From the NCBI GenBank assembly GCA_028293745.1, contig JAQGOF010000004.1, positions 1 through 64,000 of the forward strand: a stretch of DNA of 64,000 nt. Reading direction: 5' to 3'. This document shows positions 41,952 to 49,116 of the stretch, one piece after another. Below the pieces are notes generated by a model, which saw only the letters and a program-made list of their open reading frames with translations, ran no database searches and was not told the origin of the DNA. Positions within the stretch are counted from its first letter, which is position 1; each line of letters begins with the position of its first letter. This stretch comes from Gammaproteobacteria bacterium. GTDB taxonomy: Bacteria; Pseudomonadota; Gammaproteobacteria; Steroidobacterales; Steroidobacteraceae. Made by a program: the position numbers and the translations under genes.

Positions 41952-43349
41952 CTATCGCGCCGAGTCCTGCGCTCGCACTGCCTCATCCTTGCCTTCCGGG
42001 CCGGGGGGCGATTCCTTGCCGGTGTATGTCTCGAGACGGTTGTACAGTGTCTTGAGACTGACGCCCAGGATCTCGGCGGCCTTGCGTTTCACGTGACCGC
42101 AGTACGCAAGCGTGGCCATAGTCACGCGCCGCTCCACTTCCTCCAGCGGAGTACCTACCCGGATGGTAATCGTCGTGCCGTCGTCCGGCTTGGGAGCCGT
42201 GTCGGTTACAGCAACGTCGAACTCGATAACGTCGTCGGCCATGATGTATGTGCGCTGCACATAGTTCTTCAACTCGCGCACGTTGCCGGGCCAGGGATGT
42301 TGATACAACCGGACCAGCGCATCGCGCGAGAAGGTTTTGTTCGTACTTTCGGCGCGGTTGAGGTCGTCGAGGAAGAACTGTGCCAGTTGCTCGATGTCCG
42401 TACCCCGCTCGCGCAGGGGCGGCAACCGGATCGGAAACACGTTCAGGCGGTGGTACAGGTCTTCACGTAGCTTGCCATCTGCAACCGCCTTCTCGGGCTC
42501 GCGGTTCGTGGCACAGATGACGCGGATGTCGCTAGCGACCGTCTGAGTGCCGCCAACTCGCATTACGGTGCCGGTCTCCAGGACGCGCAGAAGCTTTACC
42601 TGCAGCTCCATGGGCATCTCGGTGATTTCATCGAGGAAGATGGTTCCGCCATTGGAACGCTCGAAAAATCCCTTGTGCTGCCGATCGGCCCCGGTAAAGC
42701 TGCCCCGCTCGTGGCCGAACAGCTCGCTTTCGATCAGCTGCGGTGCTACCGCGCCGCAGTTCAGCGGCAGAAAGGCCGAATCTCTGCGCCGCGACAGCTC
42801 GTGTACCGTGGCCGCGGCAAGCTCTTTGCCTGTACCGCTCTCACCTATGAGCATGACGGTAGCCGAGGTCGGCGCCACGCGGCTGAGCTGGTCGTACAGG
42901 ACCTGCATGCGAGGCGAGCTGCCCAGAATCCGGCCGAAACGGCCCAGCTTACGCAGCTCCTCGCGCAGCTCCCCGATCTCGTGTTGCAGCGCGGAGGTCT
43001 TCTTCGCGTGCCTCAGCACCGCTTGAACGCGGTCGAGATCCGCCGGTTTGACGAGATAGTCGCTCGCCCCTGCGCGCAGGGCAGCAACGGCACTGTCTAC
43101 GGTGGCATGACCTGTGACGATAATGACTTCTGTGGCCTCAGGCTTCTCGAGCTCGCGCATGAGCTCGATGCCTTCGCCATCGGGCAGGCGAAGGTCGGTA
43201 AGCAGCACATCCGGGCGCTGCCGCCCGAGCTCAATCCGCGCGTCGCGGATGCTGTGCGCCCTGGCAACAGTAAACCCTTCCATTCGGGCGACTTCCTGCA
43301 GCCAGTCCACGACATCCGGGTCATCGTCGACGATCAGAGCATGTGCCAT
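41952..43349 (-). CDS. Sigma-54-dependent response regulator (NtrC family)
   Basis: A 465-residue activator: receiver domain (1-120, Asp in VLLTDLRLPDGEG, Lys in YLVKPADL), AAA+ domain (about 140-375, Walker A GESGTGKE, Walker B GGTIFLDEI), and a Fis-type helix-turn-helix at the end (MATLAYCGHVKRKAAEILGV...LYNRL). The sigma-54 contact loop reads GSFTGA instead of the common GAFTGA, a tolerated variant in some activators. It is the only sigma-54 activator in the window and the obvious candidate to drive the sigma-54 promoters near 45.7 and 47.7 kb. No cognate kinase adjoins directly. Confidence 0.9.
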   Translation of the reverse strand: MAHALIVDDDPDVVDWLQEVARMEGFTVARAHSIRDARIELGRQRPDVLLTDLRLPDGEGIELMRELEKPEATEVIIVTGHATVDSAVAALRAGASDYLVKPADLDRVQAVLRHAKKTSALQHEIGELREELRKLGRFGRILGSSPRMQVLYDQLSRVAPTSATVMLIGESGTGKELAAATVHELSRRRDSAFLPLNCGAVAPQLIESELFGHERGSFTGADRQHKGFFERSNGGTIFLDEITEMPMELQVKLLRVLETGTVMRVGGTQTVASDIRVICATNREPEKAVADGKLREDLYHRLNVFPIRLPPLRERGTDIEQLAQFFLDDLNRAESTNKTFSRDALVRLYQHPWPGNVRELKNYVQRTYIMADDVIEFDVAVTDTAPKPDDGTTITIRVGTPLEEVERRVTMATLAYCGHVKRKAAEILGVSLKTLYNRLETYTGKESPPGPEGKDEAVRAQDSAR

Positions 43350-43727: not shown

Positions 43728-44918
43728 TTAAAGATCGACCGTTCCGGGTGACGGGCGGCTCAGGGGCAGGCCCGAAATCGTACTGGCAATGATCGAGGTC
43801 ACCACGACGACGAGCGTGACCCCCGCCAACAGCCGGGCGTATGGAGCGCCAAGCCCGTGGTTGATCGAGAAAGCCAGGCAGTACAGTGAAGCGATGCCCC
43901 GGGCCGTGAAGCCCGCGACACTGCGCCATTGCGCCTCGGGCATGGCCATCCCACCCAGCGCAAGGCGGACCGCGAGCGGCCTGATGATGAGTATCAGAAT
44001 CCCCGCGAACACCAGCATCCACCACTTGTATTCGATGCTGGCGACCAATGCTCCCACGAGCACGACGATCACGAGCCAGCAATAGCGCTCTATCCGGCCT
44101 GCGATTTTCAACACCCGCGGCATGAGTGGCCGATTGCGCAACGGCCGACGCAATCGGCCGCCATGTGACAGCGCGACCCCGGCAGTGAAAACGGCGAGGA
44201 AGCCGTCTGTGTGAATAGCCAGGGCCGCGCCATAGGCCAAGGCGGCAGTCGCAAACACCATCGCCTCTTCCAGGAAGTCCGCCTGGCGCTCCGGATCCAG
44301 GAGCTTTATCCAGCGCGCCATGCCTGCGCCGATCACAGAGCCCACCACGAAGCCGCCGGCGACAGCCCACAGCGCCACGGGCGCGATCGAGCCCAGCGCG
44401 GCGGAATCCGAATCGCTCAAGCCCATCATCCCGAGTACCAACAGTACGAGAGCTGCGGCCAGTCCGTTGTTGATACCGCTTTCCGCGCAGAGGATGAACG
44501 ACGGCGCGTCCTGCTCGGCGTCGGACTGCGAAGGCACGTCCGAGGCCAGCACAGAATCGGTCGGGGCGATGATGGCCCCGAGAAGCAGGGACTCCGCCAG
44601 ACTCAGGTCGAACATTAGATGGGCGGCCGCGGCGGCCAGCGCTATGGTCGCAAGAGTGGCGAGAGTGGACAGCCGCAGAGGTATCCGCCACGTACGCCAC
44701 TCGATCGGCATTCGCAGCCGCAGCCCGAGACAGAACAGGCATGTCAGCAAGGCGATCTCGCTGACCGTTTCGATCAGCGCGCCGTCTTCCATTAGTTGAG
44801 GCCGCAGAAGCCGCAGTCCCAGGGGTCCCAGCAGAACGCCAACTCCGAGTGCGACGACGGCCGCGTGAGCGGGACGCCGCGTCAATGCGAAATCAATTCT
44901 ATGGCCGGGCGTCGCCAC
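43728..44918 (-). CDS. CPA1-type cation/proton antiporter
   Basis: A 396-residue membrane protein with about 11-12 spans. The core transport motif LLGAIIAPTDSVLASDV and the following ESGINNGLAAALVL are the Na+/H+ exchanger signatures, and GGMAMPEAQWRSVAGFTARGIASLYCL is the late conserved helix. It would exchange Na+ or K+ for H+ at the inner membrane. Its start overlaps the end of the DUF2383 gene by 20 bases, so they form one unit. Confidence 0.85.
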   Translation of the reverse strand: MATPGHRIDFALTRRPAHAAVVALGVGVLLGPLGLRLLRPQLMEDGALIETVSEIALLTCLFCLGLRLRMPIEWRTWRIPLRLSTLATLATIALAAAAAHLMFDLSLAESLLLGAIIAPTDSVLASDVPSQSDAEQDAPSFILCAESGINNGLAAALVLLVLGMMGLSDSDSAALGSIAPVALWAVAGGFVVGSVIGAGMARWIKLLDPERQADFLEEAMVFATAALAYGAALAIHTDGFLAVFTAGVALSHGGRLRRPLRNRPLMPRVLKIAGRIERYCWLVIVVLVGALVASIEYKWWMLVFAGILILIIRPLAVRLALGGMAMPEAQWRSVAGFTARGIASLYCLAFSINHGLGAPYARLLAGVTLVVVVTSIIASTISGLPLSRPSPGTVDL

Positions 44919-45387
44919 CGGTGCTCGCGGCCATCAGGCCGCCCTGACGTTGATCGGTGTGAAGGAAGCGAATCTGATCGTGATCGCTCATCATGCCCTC
45001 GAACTGGCGCAGGATCACCTGCCGCACGAACTCCGGCAGATGATCATCCAATGCATTCCGGTATACCTCAAGAGCGTGGTCTTCGCCATGCTCGCACTCG
45101 TCGATGAGCGCCTGGTCGGTATTCTGGGTCAGGGCGGTTTGCAGATTGACCCAACCCCGGCGGGCCGCGCCGCGGATCTTGCCGCAGGCGGCCGGATCTG
45201 CCCCGAGCTGTGCGAGCAATTCGCACAGCTCCCCGGCAGCGGCGGTGTGCCGGCTGGCACGGCTCACAAACAACTTCTTCAGTCCATCGGCGTGGGCGTG
45301 CTCCGCGCACGCCATGAAACCATGTTCACCGCTCTTAGCAACCGCCAACAGCTCGCTCAGGGTTGGGATGGTGTAACGATAATTCAT
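44899..45387 (-). CDS. PA2169/DUF2383 family four-helix-bundle protein
   Basis: A 162-residue ferritin-like helical protein. The family pattern has Glu/His pairs in SGEHGFMACAEHAHADGLKK and LIDECEHGEDHALEVYRNAL, which could bind metal. The frame is open to 45627, but the ATG at 45387 follows GGGGGAAG and starts the homology. DUF2383 proteins are often part of stress regulons. It overlaps the antiporter start, so the two are probably co-expressed. Confidence 0.8.
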   Translation of the reverse strand: MNYRYTIPTLSELLAVAKSGEHGFMACAEHAHADGLKKLFVSRASRHTAAAGELCELLAQLGADPAACGKIRGAARRGWVNLQTALTQNTDQALIDECEHGEDHALEVYRNALDDHLPEFVRQVILRQFEGMMSDHDQIRFLHTDQRQGGLMAASTGGDARP

Positions 45388-45745
45388 ACTTCCCCCTCGG
45401 AGGCCGCGGGCCTGCGTTACAGCATGCACCGTACCCGGCAAGGCACCTTCGACGCCCTTGGGAGGTGCATCGAACATGAAAAACCGCTTGCAGGAGATAC
45501 GGCCCGCGCACGCAGGAATTTTTTTCACGCCATTGCTGAGCGCGCGGGTACGAATTACATCAAGGGAGCCGCGGAATGCACTCCCATTCCAACGAGCGGG
45601 TCCCTTCGCGTCGAAATTTGTTGGCATCGCTGGCGCCCAATCGGCGTCGTAAAAGGTCTATCGTAGACATCCAGGCCCTACCTGCCGACACTCTCCCTCG
45701 CCAGCTCGCAACAGCGAGCAGGAAGTGTTCCCGCGGCCCGTTGCT
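45388..45745. other. Intergenic region with dyads upstream of sigma-54 promoters
   Basis: No convincing gene is present; plus-strand frames here lack family features or ribosome sites. Two dyads stand out: GGAATG (45571-45576) with CATTCC (45583-45588), and GCTCGC (45704-45709) with GCGAGC (45714-45719). They lie about 160-175 and 30-40 bases upstream of the first sigma-54 promoter. The distal one is at a usual distance for an NtrC-type activator site. The region also holds the promoter of the leftward DUF2383 gene. Confidence 0.4.
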
Positions 45746-45761
45746 TGGCATAACGGTTGCA
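45746..45761 (+). promoter_or_regulatory. Sigma-54 promoter P1 of candidate small RNA
   Basis: TGGCATAACGGTTGCA matches the sigma-54 consensus TGGCAC-R-N4-TTGCW at every defined base except the C at position 6. The essential GG (45747-45748) and GC (45759-45760) are exactly 10 bases apart. Transcription would run rightward from about 45772. No protein gene follows, but an intrinsic terminator does. Confidence 0.6.
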
Positions 45762-45769
45762 TGTTGGAT

Positions 45770-45785
45770 GGGCACGCGGGTTGCG
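45770..45785 (+). promoter_or_regulatory. Second overlapping sigma-54-type promoter P2
   Basis: GGGCACGCGGGTTGCG differs from the sigma-54 consensus only at its first and last bases and keeps GG-N10-GC. It lies 24 bases downstream of P1 in the same direction. Its start site would be near 45796, giving an RNA of about 98 nt. It could be a true tandem promoter or a chance match inside the P1 transcript. Confidence 0.4.
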
Positions 45786-45893
45786 ACCCTCCTGCGTAAA
45801 CCAGTTTTGAGCTACCGCCTTTGTCGAGGCGGCAGCACTTGCCGAAGACCCCCCGTTTGGCGGGCTGTGGTGCGAACAGCCCGCTCCTTTTTT
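45772..45893 (+). ncRNA. Candidate sigma-54-dependent small RNA
   Basis: A stretch of about 122 nt between two sigma-54-type promoters and a perfect intrinsic terminator. Internal structure includes the hairpin CCGCCT/AGGCGG (45815-45820 with 45827-45832) and the terminator stem at 45860-45884. A C-run (GACCCCCCG, 45848-45856) just before the terminator may be single-stranded and could pair with G-rich ribosome sites. Plus-strand open frames crossing it show no family features. It converges on the 3' end of the hybrid kinase gene. Existence and boundaries are inferred. Confidence 0.5.
45860..45893 (+). terminator. Perfect intrinsic terminator on plus strand
   Basis: GCGGGCTGT (45860-45868) pairs without mismatch with ACAGCCCGC (45876-45884), followed by TCC and six T residues (45888-45893). 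The T-run is on the plus strand only, so it ends rightward transcription. It cannot serve the leftward kinase gene, whose stop is at 45896-45898, in the same way. No plus-strand protein gene is available to need it. Confidence 0.85.
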
Positions 45894-45895
45894 GC

Positions 45896-47557
45896 CTATC
45901 GTCCGTGGTCGGCCAAACGGCGCACCAGCGGCACGAACGTATTGAAGTCAACTGGCTTCGGCACGTGTAGATCGAACCCCGCATCCATAGCCGCTTCCAC
46001 ATCGCGGGTCGAGGCATAGCCGGTCACCGCTATGGCCAACATCTGCCGCCCCGACTGCAAGGCGCGCAGCCGCCGGACCAGGGAGTAGCCATCCACCTCC
46101 GGCATTCCAATGTCTGTCACGATGATGTCGAAATGGGCGCCCGCTTCCTGGAGCTTCTCGAATGCCGACATGGCGGAATCCGTGACGGTGACGTTGGCCC
46201 CCTCGAGCTTCAACGTTTCCGCAACAATGGTGCGGGCGTCGGGCTCGTCGTCTACCACGAGGATGGACAGGCCGCCGAGACTGGCGTGACCCGCCCCGGA
46301 GTCCGAGTCGCCGGTACCGTGCGCCTCGGCCGATCTCCAAGGCTGGCGGACTGGAAAGCTGGCAACGAACTTTGCGCCACGGCCAACACCGGCACTGCTG
46401 GCCGAGATGGTGCCGCCATGCAGCGTCACGATCTCGCGCACGAGTGCCAGTCCCAAACCCAGCCCGCCGGAGTGACGGGTGATCGAACTGTCTGCCTGCC
46501 GAAACCGGTCAAACACGTGGGGAAGCGACTCGGGCGCAATGCCCAGCCCCGTGTCTTCGACACCGAGCTCCGCGAACCCTTCCGCGTTACGCAGGGTGAC
46601 GCAGATCCGACCGCCGGAGCTGGTGAACTTCAGCGCGTTCGACAGCAAGTTGGTCACCACCTGCTGCAATCGGTCCGGATCGCCGCGTAACTGGCCGGCA
46701 CCCGGCTCGAAATCCGCTTGCAATGCTATTGCCTTCGCGGCGGCCGTCGGCCGCGCCAGGTCCAACGCCGCGGAAACAACTTTCGCGAGCTGCATGGGAC
46801 GGGCTTCGATACGCAGCTTGCCCGTCTCGATACGCCCGAGATCCAGGAGATCGTTGACCATCTTCAGTTGCGCGCGGGCGCTGTGCTCGATTCGAGTCGT
46901 AATCGAGGCAACTTCGGGATCATCCGGGCGCTTGAGCGCCAGGATGCGGTTCCAGCCGAGGATCGCGTTCAAGGGCGAGCGCAACTCGTGCGAGAACACG
47001 GACAGGAATTGGTCCTTGCCGCGATTCGCGGCTTGCGCTTCCGAGCGCAGGCGCCGCTCGGTGTCCAGAACCGCTGCGCGCTCGACCGCCTGACTGGCCG
47101 TCGCTTTTTTCTCGGCGCTGACGTTCCGCGACGTCAGGATCAGAGTGCGATGATTGTTGCCGTCATTGGTGGCTCGGCCATGCAACGCTATCCATTGTGC
47201 GCTCCGGTCGGGCCATGTTGCCTGCACCACCAAGTCGAAATCCACGCTGCTTGCGATAGCTGCGCGCGCCGCATCGGCAAGCGTGAGTCGACTCTCCGCA
47301 GCCACGCGTTCCAGCAGGCTCGGCCAATCGAGCTGCGCATCCGGGGCCCAGCCAAATTCCGCCTTGAATTGTGAATTCGCGCGCAGCTCGCGGGTCTCAC
47401 TGTCGAGCACGCAGAAACCCAGGTGCGAAGCTGCGACGACGGCTTCCAGCTCGTCGTTGCGGCGTGCGAGGGCGGCGCACTGCGCCTGCGCGCGTTCGAG
47501 CTCGCCCGACAGGTCGGGTATGAGGGAACTCAGCCCCGGTTCATGAATTGAAGTCAT
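45896..47557 (-). CDS. Hybrid sensor histidine kinase (PAS-HisKA-ATPase-receiver)
   Basis: A 553-residue soluble hybrid kinase. An N-terminal coiled coil (LERAQAQCAALARRNDELEAVV) leads to a PAS domain (about 45-160). The phosphoacceptor is FSHELRSPLNAILGW near residue 192. ATPase motifs are NLLSNALKFT, GVEDTGLGIA and GGLGLGLALV. The C-terminal receiver (about 430-550) has ILVVDDEPDA and the Asp in IIVTDIGMPEVDG. No membrane span, so the signal is cytoplasmic or protein-borne. A weak sigma-54-type site lies upstream. Phosphorelay to the single-domain regulator at 40.7 kb is possible. Confidence 0.9.
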   Translation of the reverse strand: MTSIHEPGLSSLIPDLSGELERAQAQCAALARRNDELEAVVAASHLGFCVLDSETRELRANSQFKAEFGWAPDAQLDWPSLLERVAAESRLTLADAARAAIASSVDFDLVVQATWPDRSAQWIALHGRATNDGNNHRTLILTSRNVSAEKKATASQAVERAAVLDTERRLRSEAQAANRGKDQFLSVFSHELRSPLNAILGWNRILALKRPDDPEVASITTRIEHSARAQLKMVNDLLDLGRIETGKLRIEARPMQLAKVVSAALDLARPTAAAKAIALQADFEPGAGQLRGDPDRLQQVVTNLLSNALKFTSSGGRICVTLRNAEGFAELGVEDTGLGIAPESLPHVFDRFRQADSSITRHSGGLGLGLALVREIVTLHGGTISASSAGVGRGAKFVASFPVRQPWRSAEAHGTGDSDSGAGHASLGGLSILVVDDEPDARTIVAETLKLEGANVTVTDSAMSAFEKLQEAGAHFDIIVTDIGMPEVDGYSLVRRLRALQSGRQMLAIAVTGYASTRDVEAAMDAGFDLHVPKPVDFNTFVPLVRRLADHGR

Positions 47558-47700: not shown

Positions 47701-47716
47701 TGGCATGGCTGTTGCT
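47701..47716 (+). promoter_or_regulatory. Sigma-54 promoter upstream of rpoN
   Basis: TGGCATGGCTGTTGCT matches the sigma-54 consensus at all defined bases but one (C to T at position 6), with GG (47702-47703) and GC (47714-47715) exactly 10 apart. The predicted start near 47727 gives a 25-base leader before the rpoN ATG. This implies that sigma-54 drives its own gene. Confidence 0.65.
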
Positions 47717-47751: not shown

Positions 47752-49116
47752 ATGTCCAATGCCGTAATGGGACTGCGCCTGAAGCAGCAGCTCACCCTCA
47801 CACCGAGACTGCAGCAGTCCGTGAAGCTTTTGCAGTTATCGGCCCTGGAGTGTGTGCAAGAACTGCACCAGGCAATCGCCCAGAACCCATTCCTCGAAGA
47901 AGCCACGGAGAACGCGGAGACACGCTCCGAGGCCGAAGATGGCTCGTCCGAAGACACGTCGCGCAGCGACCTCGATTTTTCCGGCAACGGATCGAGCAGC
48001 AGCGGCGGTGATGACACCCCGGATTGGACAGAGTGGACCGCCTCGCCGGCCACATTGCATGACTCGCTCCACGAGCAGCTGTTACTTCTCGGCCTGAGCG
48101 AGCGCGACTACGCGCTTGCGAATCTCGTCGTCGACGCGCTCGACGAAGACGGCTTCCTCCGCCAGCCGCTCGAGGAGATTCAAGCGTTTGCGCCTGGTGC
48201 CGAACCTGGGGAAATCGAGACGGCCCTACGGATCGTACAGACGCTCGAGCCGAGCGGAATTGCGGCACGCAACCTGGGCGAATGCCTCGCGCTTCAATTA
48301 CACGGGCTTGATCAAGGCACGCCGGGGCGGGACGTCGCGCTCGACCTCGTTCAAAACGCCTTGAGCCTGATGGCTGCACGCGACAACACGCGCCTGGTGG
48401 AAACGCTGGGCTGTTCTGAGGACGAGCTGCGCGTTGCGATGGAGTTGATTCGCAGCCTGGACCCGCGTCCGGGCTCCAAGGTCGGAACGTTCGAACCGCG
48501 CGCAATCGTTCCGGATGTCGTCGTACGGAAGGAAAAGAAGCGCTGGGTCGTCAGCATCAATGCGGCAATCTATCCGCGCATTCGTGTAAACCAACAGTAC
48601 GCGGACTACTTCCGCCAGGCACGCGACGGTGAGACTGCGTTGCTCGCGCAGCATCTGCAGGAAGCACGTTGGTTGGTCCGCAATCTCGAACAGCGTTTTC
48701 TCACCATACAGCGCGTGGCCGAGGCGGTCGTCGCACGCCAGCGTAATTTCTTCGAGTACGGTGATCTCGCGATGCGTCCGTTGACGCTTCGGGAGATCGC
48801 AGATGAGCTCGGTTTGCACGAGTCGACCGTATCGCGTGCGACGAGCCACAAATATATGGCCACACCGCGGGGTGTGGTTGCATTCAAGCGCTTCTTCTCG
48901 CGACAGCTGGCGACAACCAGTGGTGGCTCGTGTTCAGCCACCGCAATACGAGCACTGCTGCGCGAGTTCATCGCAGCGGAAGATCGCCGCAATCCGCTGT
49001 CGGATGTCCAGTTGACTGAGCTGCTCGCCGATCGGGGAGTCAAGGTGGCCCGCCGGACTGTAACGAAGTACCGGCGGTCGATGCTGTTGCCAGCCGTGGA
49101 TTTCCGCCGCGCCTGA
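47752..49116 (+). CDS. rpoN: RNA polymerase sigma-54 factor
   Basis: A 454-residue sigma-54. Region I is QQLTLTPRLQQSVKLLQLSA (residues 12-31), followed by a short acidic Ser/Asp/Gly region (about 45-90). The core-binding part follows, then the helix-turn-helix LTLREIADELGLHESTVSRA near 345-365. The RpoN box ARRTVTKYRR near 433 differs at one position from the usual ARRTVAKYRE region. The usual neighbours (lptB, hpf, ptsN) are absent; instead it lies among kinases and stress genes, which suggests an accessory second copy. A sigma-54 promoter precedes it. Confidence 0.92.
   Translation: MSNAVMGLRLKQQLTLTPRLQQSVKLLQLSALECVQELHQAIAQNPFLEEATENAETRSEAEDGSSEDTSRSDLDFSGNGSSSSGGDDTPDWTEWTASPATLHDSLHEQLLLLGLSERDYALANLVVDALDEDGFLRQPLEEIQAFAPGAEPGEIETALRIVQTLEPSGIAARNLGECLALQLHGLDQGTPGRDVALDLVQNALSLMAARDNTRLVETLGCSEDELRVAMELIRSLDPRPGSKVGTFEPRAIVPDVVVRKEKKRWVVSINAAIYPRIRVNQQYADYFRQARDGETALLAQHLQEARWLVRNLEQRFLTIQRVAEAVVARQRNFFEYGDLAMRPLTLREIADELGLHESTVSRATSHKYMATPRGVVAFKRFFSRQLATTSGGSCSATAIRALLREFIAAEDRRNPLSDVQLTELLADRGVKVARRTVTKYRRSMLLPAVDFRRA

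Follow-up and report, generated by a model that had tools for sequence, protein, structure and literature searches.

A predicted sigma-54-dependent, C-rich small RNA encoded beside an NtrC-type activator and a second rpoN gene in Steroidobacteraceae

The locus and its predicted transcript

The window, by which we mean the whole 64,000-nucleotide stretch of Steroidobacteraceae DNA analysed here, carries at positions 45746-45893 an interval surrounded by regulatory and transport genes. On its 5' side, all on the reverse strand, lie genes for an NtrC-type sigma-54 activator with receiver, AAA+ and Fis-type HTH domains (41952-43349; Pfam), a cation/proton antiporter (PF00999; 43728-44918) and a DUF2383/PA2169-family four-helix-bundle protein (44899-45387; domain searches). 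On its 3' side a reverse-strand hybrid histidine kinase gene (45896-47557) converges with the interval, and a forward-strand rpoN gene follows at 47752-49116 (domain searches). This is the second sigma-54 gene of the genome, another rpoN being present elsewhere. The initial annotation had placed rpoN about 2 kb and an NtrC-type regulator about 2.4 kb from the interval, and both are found there. A perfect sigma-54 site on the forward strand precedes this rpoN (47701-47716) and may point to its autoregulation; such a site also precedes rpoN in five of ten other loci examined, all five of the long form described below, and in none of the five short-form loci.

The interval opens with a forward-strand -24/-12 promoter, P1 (TGGCATAACGGTTGCA, 45746-45761). 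The initial annotation described a sigma-54 promoter with one consensus base changed; the promoter stands, with no mismatch to TGGCAYRNNNNTTGCW, while the altered base depends on the consensus used. Only P1 and the site before rpoN match this pattern perfectly in the 64-kb window. With the start placed 12 nt after the C of the GC element, transcription from P1 is predicted to begin at 45772. A start at 45796, also proposed earlier, corresponds to the weaker site P2 (GGGCACGCGGGTTGCG, 45770-45785, forward strand), which has two mismatches. Second sigma-54-like sites with one to three mismatches occur in six of the ten long-form loci, the window included, and three of these have three mismatches; P2 is therefore retained as a possible site.

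At its other end the interval is closed by its own intrinsic terminator, a hairpin with a conserved loop followed by a T-run (45859-45893, forward strand). The stem, at 45859-45885, consists of nine Watson-Crick pairs and one G-U pair around a loop of seven nucleotides, and is followed by CC and six T residues, in agreement with the nine-pair stem and T6 reported before. Under a loose rule it is the sole terminator-like site within 2 kb, against 1.4 expected in shuffled sequences. The RNA predicted from the P1 start to the end of the T-run (45772-45893, forward strand) measures 122 nt, close to the 120 nt previously described as lacking a credible gene. A scan for AUG and GUG found no AUG and two GUGs, both in the terminator loop.

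The folding energy of the full-length RNA is unremarkable (z -1.14), and the case is carried by conservation. The minimum-free-energy fold contains a 5' hairpin at 45811-45836 (forward strand), directly before the conserved part of the RNA, and the other long forms have hairpins of differing sequence near the same place. The 48 nt preceding GACCCCCCG yield z-scores from -0.77 to -4.55, at or below -1.5 in eight of the ten long forms. Downstream of the hairpin, an ACCCCCC motif (45848-45854, forward strand) forms the candidate pairing region; in the window RNA it is predicted to be unpaired with a probability of 0.70-0.98. For the second to sixth C residues the value is at least 0.97 in every one of the seven short forms, so that the single-stranded C-run characteristic of C-rich pairing sRNAs is predicted for the window and for each short form. 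Among the long forms, L031 and L040 are predicted to have the C-run paired, and L018 and L025 give a mixed picture.

Conservation of the core, the promoter and the activator

Sequence conservation is concentrated in a 48-nt core at the 3' end (45846-45893, forward strand), which comprises AGACCCCCCGUUUGG, the terminator hairpin and the U-run and was traced by blastn, an exact scan and a covariance model. A search of 60 relatives with positions 45730-45900 matched eight genomes at E <=0.01, the genome of origin included, two of which (G040 and G001) gave only short, weak matches outside the core. A blastn search with the 3' part, which demands no exact match, gave 11 of 58 genus genomes, again including the genome of origin. 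An exact 20-base scan with ACCCCCCGTTTGGCGGGCTG over a collection of 84,980 species genomes found 15 contigs, all from metagenome-assembled genomes. Their titles read Proteobacteria, Gammaproteobacteria or, for two contigs, Steroidobacteraceae, the family to which these titles suggest that the group belongs. The covariance model, run over 396 genomes of the order under stricter filters that lose weak matches, matched 15 genomes, of which 11 were accepted: ten strong matches and one diverged homologue (L044 in genome G386) that adjoins the same kinase and activator. The remaining four (G382, G388, G043 and G285) were dropped, having no sigma-54 site with up to two mismatches in the upstream stretch examined and no activator at E 1e-170; L042 and L046, from among these genomes, look on reading like terminators behind an ammonium-transporter gene. 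No Rfam family matched the window at gathering scores or positions 45650-45950 at E up to 5, and a plasmid collection contained no DNA match to 45820-45897. The window, the 15 contigs and L044 make up 17 distinct loci, all from bacteria related to one another, most of them represented by metagenome-assembled genomes.

Across 16 loci, L044 being left out, only two positions differ in the 38-base stretch that runs from GACCCCCCG to CAGCCCGC, one variant occurring in the window and the other in L024. Twenty of these bases were set in advance by the exact scan to which 15 of the loci are owed, which for those loci leaves the other 18 as free evidence. The ACCCCCC motif is present in all 17 loci, the diverged L044 included. 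A sigma-54 promoter with GG and GC at fixed spacing lies 5' of the core in every one of the 17, perfect in 16 and with one mismatch in L031; it was visible in the fetched stretch of 14 of the 15 contigs, and for L017 was read from L040, which has the same sequence around the core. The four spacer bases of the promoter and its flanks vary widely across loci, and the core is nearly invariant. The conservation that the initial annotation proposed to check is found, in the form of a 3' core accompanied each time by a -24/-12 promoter.

The distance between promoter and core separates two architectures. In the ten long-form loci ACCCCCC lies 78-132 nt beyond the start of the promoter and the predicted RNA is 98-151 nt long. 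In the seven short-form loci the promoter starts only 25-28 nt before this motif and the predicted RNA is 44-50 nt long and contains no AUG; six of them have one or two GUGs inside the terminator, and L044 has neither AUG nor GUG. In each of these seven loci transcription is predicted to start within the first bases of the core, which then makes up the whole of the predicted RNA; this arrangement suggests that the core is the important part. In a tree of the adjacent activators, six closely related short forms make up one fully supported clade nested within the long forms, and G386 is placed elsewhere. The tree requires two changes between long and short forms, only one of which is forced by well-supported branches, and a repeated origin of the short form is therefore not shown.

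The locus is largely syntenic across relatives, the common order being a LuxR-type regulator, the NtrC-type activator, the antiporter, the DUF2383 protein, the sRNA, the hybrid kinase and rpoN. The activator is found 5' of the sRNA in every locus, at about 3.5 kb in L017/L040 (G246). The other neighbours vary: no antiporter lies between activator and sRNA in L025, L026, L029 and L044, no DUF2383 match was found in L025, L026, L029, L031 and L040, and the kinase is missing in L026, where 585 nt separate the core from the start of rpoN, and was not found in the 781 nt read of L031. We found rpoN in ten loci; in the others the stretch read ends at most 1.6 kb from the core. The activators of the 16 other loci are 80-95% identical to that of the window, above the antiporter (40-79%) and the kinase (51-80%); RpoN is 67-88% identical.

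In the two sets of genomes compared, the activator and the sRNA are distributed alike. Among the 58 genus genomes, 11 have an activator match at E 1e-100, and these are the 11 that carry the sRNA; among the 396 order genomes a cut-off of E 1e-170 likewise leaves 11, identical to those with a checked sRNA locus. Eight genomes are common to the two sets. Among 369 genomes of the class, a search at E 1e-150 found it in the genome of origin and in one other, at 53% identity. As the loci come from related bacteria, this co-occurrence is not independent of linkage and common descent, which explain part of it, and regulation of the sRNA by the activator is supported but unproven. The activator scores 371.8 bits against the NCBIfam ntrC model, below its cut-off of 558.6. 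Homologues are present on 70 records of the plasmid collection, mainly from Burkholderia, with 54-60% identity among the matches listed (10 of 70). Three of the 70 plasmid loci were scanned for sigma-54 sites with at most one mismatch: L081 has two, with no C5 run or T5 in the 284 nt beyond either, and L082 and L083 have none. On the Paraburkholderia sabiae plasmid represented by L082, a 59% identical homologue lies about 4 kb from the BREX defence gene brxC.

Upstream of the sRNA promoter, possible activator binding sites recur. A strict TGTA-N5..7-TACA dyad is present within 330 bp of the promoter in 10 of the 17 loci (mean of 0.02 and maximum of 1 in 300 shuffles), and a relaxed version in 12 (mean 0.44, maximum 3). 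The 330 bp scanned before P1 in the window lack the strict dyad and hold the relaxed one, a GTA-N5-TAC sequence at 45548-45558, 198 bp 5' of P1, which is a candidate binding site. Divergent sigma-54-like sites with up to two mismatches, facing the activator side, are likewise found in 12 of the 17 loci (L018, L019, L021-L025, L027-L029, L040 and L044; shuffle mean 0.73, maximum 4), 13-294 bp before the sRNA promoter, and the window is not among these loci. For dyads and divergent sites alike, the shuffles leave the shared descent of the loci in place.

Other sigma-54 sites in the genome

The genome (6.9 Mb, 91% complete) contains 18 perfect TGGCAYRNNNNTTGCW sites, against 10 for a reversed-pattern control, so that one such site taken alone means little. 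Further perfect sites do head sRNA-like stretches. A strict terminator rule, demanding a stem of at least seven pairs and T5 within two bases, was passed by 5 of the 18 sites, that of the window included, by none of the 10 control sites and, among 2000 stretches of 230 nt drawn at random from the window, by 7; it missed L057 and L064, which by eye look terminated. The sequence GACCCCC follows 4 of the 18 sites and none of the 10 controls (background 0.8%, binomial P 1.2e-5), two of the four being paralogous and one being that of the window. A looser C5 run shows no clear difference, following 5 of 18 sites against 2 of 10 controls.

The two paralogues, L052 and L057, each carry two GUGACCCCCUC motifs behind a sigma-54 site; their relatives in G078 and G077, also under sigma-54 promoters, have two motifs and one motif respectively. 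Together with L085 and L086 they are sRNA-like genes with one or two such motifs. L050, which passes the strict terminator test, carries GACCCCCUC, and L064 combines a sigma-54 site with a C-rich motif. L049 (C24:31611-31827) and L053 (C58:3220-3432), both of the genome of origin, belong to a separate and wider family of sRNA-like genes under sigma-54 sites, about 190 nt in length, which share a conserved CUCCUCCACACAAGCAAGCGACC stretch and a terminator. This family was matched in 23 of the 58 genus genomes (25 matches; other loci L104-L123), and a TGG[CT]A-N6-[TC]TGC[AT] site lies upstream in all 20 loci fetched. L049, L050, L052, L053, L057 and L064 gave no Rfam match at E 0.5. Elsewhere, in L060 (1500-1675), a c-di-GMP-I-GGC riboswitch (62.6 bits, above gathering) stands between a perfect sigma-54 site and an open reading frame, and L065 (107-396) matches the Rfam family 5_ureB_sRNA strongly (97.1 bits), which is unexpected here.

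Interpretation and relation to known small RNAs

We consider it fairly probable that 45746-45893 is the gene of a C-rich regulatory sRNA that depends on sigma-54 and an NtrC-type activator. The promoter, the terminator, the conservation, the lack of a coding frame and the linkage to the activator and rpoN are each well supported by sequence. The initial proposal of a sigma-54-dependent sRNA gains from the promoters of all 17 loci, the core, the activator in the same genomes and the short forms. Sigma-54 holoenzyme, with RpoN2 from 47752-49116 or the other RpoN of the genome, would bind P1, and an NtrC-type activator, most likely the product of 41952-43349, would open the complex from the upstream dyad. 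The transcript would begin at 45772, perhaps also at 45796, and stop at the terminator at 45893. Its working part would be the 48-nt core, with AGACCCCCCGUUUGG largely single-stranded in the window and the short forms and followed by the terminator hairpin, and the CCCCCC run would pair with G-rich sequence in or near the ribosome-binding sites of targets and block their translation.

A chance pairing of a sigma-54-like sequence with an unrelated terminator would draw on the roughly 10 perfect sites per genome expected from the reversed control, compared with 18 found; the joint presence of promoter and core in 17 of 17 loci, despite diverged spacers and flanks, leaves it hardly credible. We also regard it as very unlikely that the stretch is the leader or gene of a tiny protein, or an antisense tail of the kinase gene. 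Two open reading frames, 45576-46019 on the forward and 45658-46017 on the reverse strand, do cross the interval, parts of them give tblastn matches in other loci, and 2 nt lie between the end of the T-run and the kinase frame at 45896. On reading, however, those matches are short pieces lying on the core or on the kinase antisense with no common frame, which also answers the initial annotation's suggestion that conservation might reveal a coding frame, and in the window RNA the terminator follows directly on a sequence free of AUG.

Two further alternatives accept the RNA and differ over its control or its action. Sigma-54 sites do not name their activator, and another one, for instance a true NtrC, might control the sRNA while the neighbour serves only the divergent DUF2383-antiporter genes, as the divergent sites facing that side in 12 of 17 loci would allow. 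The joint occurrence of neighbour and sRNA in the sets of 58 and 396 genomes, which holds also for L025, L026, L029 and L044 with no intervening antiporter, makes this unlikely, and control of the sRNA by the adjacent NtrC-type activator appears quite likely. The RNA might instead bind a protein or act as a sponge for another RNA. Decoy RNAs usually repeat their motif, and the predicted window RNA has a single CCCCCC run; moreover, L044 keeps CCCCCC while its loop differs. Yet only two positions of the terminator loop UGUGGUGCGACC differ among 16 loci, more constancy than a terminator needs, no enrichment of targets was found (see below), and a protein decoy is known among sigma-54 RNAs in CrcZ (PMC8395346). 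We rate such a mode of action as rather improbable.

The preferred reading, a trans-acting C-rich sRNA that probably pairs with G-rich translation-initiation regions, is modelled on sX13: the C-rich loops of that RNA repress, independently of Hfq, mRNAs in which G-rich motifs lie close to the start codon (PMC3771888). Base-pairing with targets is somewhat more likely than not as its mode of action, and repression of G-rich targets has about an even chance of being correct. Target sites are not enriched: over 13 genomes the one pattern used, CGGGGGGTC-N2..14-ATG, matched 46 times and its reversed control 37 times. Some of the matches overlap one another, and at least three (G065:C115, G079:C147 and G080:C298) lie on the opposite strand of the sRNA gene itself. 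Comparison of 30 loci by eye found no candidate target gene in two genomes, L129 and L141 being the same place. The sequence CGGGGGGTCAGCGATG recurs in G035 (L150, the copy read), G065 and G079. Open reading frames in L148 and L130 show good complementarity, each in one genome, and are not counted as evidence.

Qrr sRNAs depend on sigma-54 and Hfq, and Qrr, CrcZ and sX13 each have an Rfam covariance model; none of these models found a match in the Rfam scans described above (the window at gathering, 45650-45950 at E up to 5). Among the closest known systems, two come from Pseudomonas. NrsZ is driven by RpoN and an NtrC-type regulator, NtrB/C, and is encoded beside the regulator gene; its most abundant species are of about 40 and 140 nt, and its first 60 nt are functional (PMC8395346). 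In the present locus, by contrast, the NtrC-type neighbour falls below the NCBIfam ntrC cut-off, so that a position beside ntrC as such is not found, conservation lies at the 3' end, and the locus includes a second rpoN; likeness to NrsZ in sequence was judged from the Rfam scans alone. CrcZ, named with CrcY as a CbrA/B and RpoN system, is RpoN-dependent and lies in the cbrB-pcnB interval beside its activator gene (PMC8395346), but is an Hfq decoy of 407 nt. The Qrr RNAs of Vibrio are sibling sRNAs under one response regulator (PMC7602753), LuxO, a homologue of NtrC (PMC11407668), and differ from the present RNA in locus and in bacteria. sX13 of Xanthomonas shares the unpaired C-rich motifs, and most mRNAs under its repression have G-rich motifs close to the start codon (PMC3771888), but it is 115 nt long with three stem-loops. 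GlmY of enterobacteria has a sigma-54 promoter under GlrR (PMC7602753) and acts through GlmZ and RapZ (PMC7073468); here again there is no Rfam match. A literature search, its Steroidobacter matches judged by title, gave among the matches listed no paper on sRNAs of this bacterial group's own or on this RNA, and a phrase search for sigma54- or RpoN-dependent small RNA found none; Steroidobacter denitrificans does appear in a conservation table of Paracoccus RNAs (PMC5107571). Judged by the Rfam scans, the sRNA is most likely a new family of a known kind, the sigma-54-dependent sRNAs.

More tentatively, the second sigma-54 and the linked activator may form a module with RNA as its main output, in which this sRNA and the GACCCCC-bearing siblings L050, L052 and L057 would act as a Qrr-like battery silencing mRNAs with G-rich starts in envelope or ion stress. 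The RNA of such a module would be a minimal C-rich sRNA of 44-50 nt or a longer one carrying the core. Taken as a whole, this picture is possible but doubtful.

If the main reading is true, these mostly uncultured bacteria would possess a new family of sRNAs that goes together with a linked activator and a second rpoN. Its short form would be a very small sigma-54-dependent sRNA and points to the likely functional part of the molecule. The five of 18 perfect sites that pass the strict terminator test suggest that in this genome a considerable part of what sigma-54 drives may be sRNAs.
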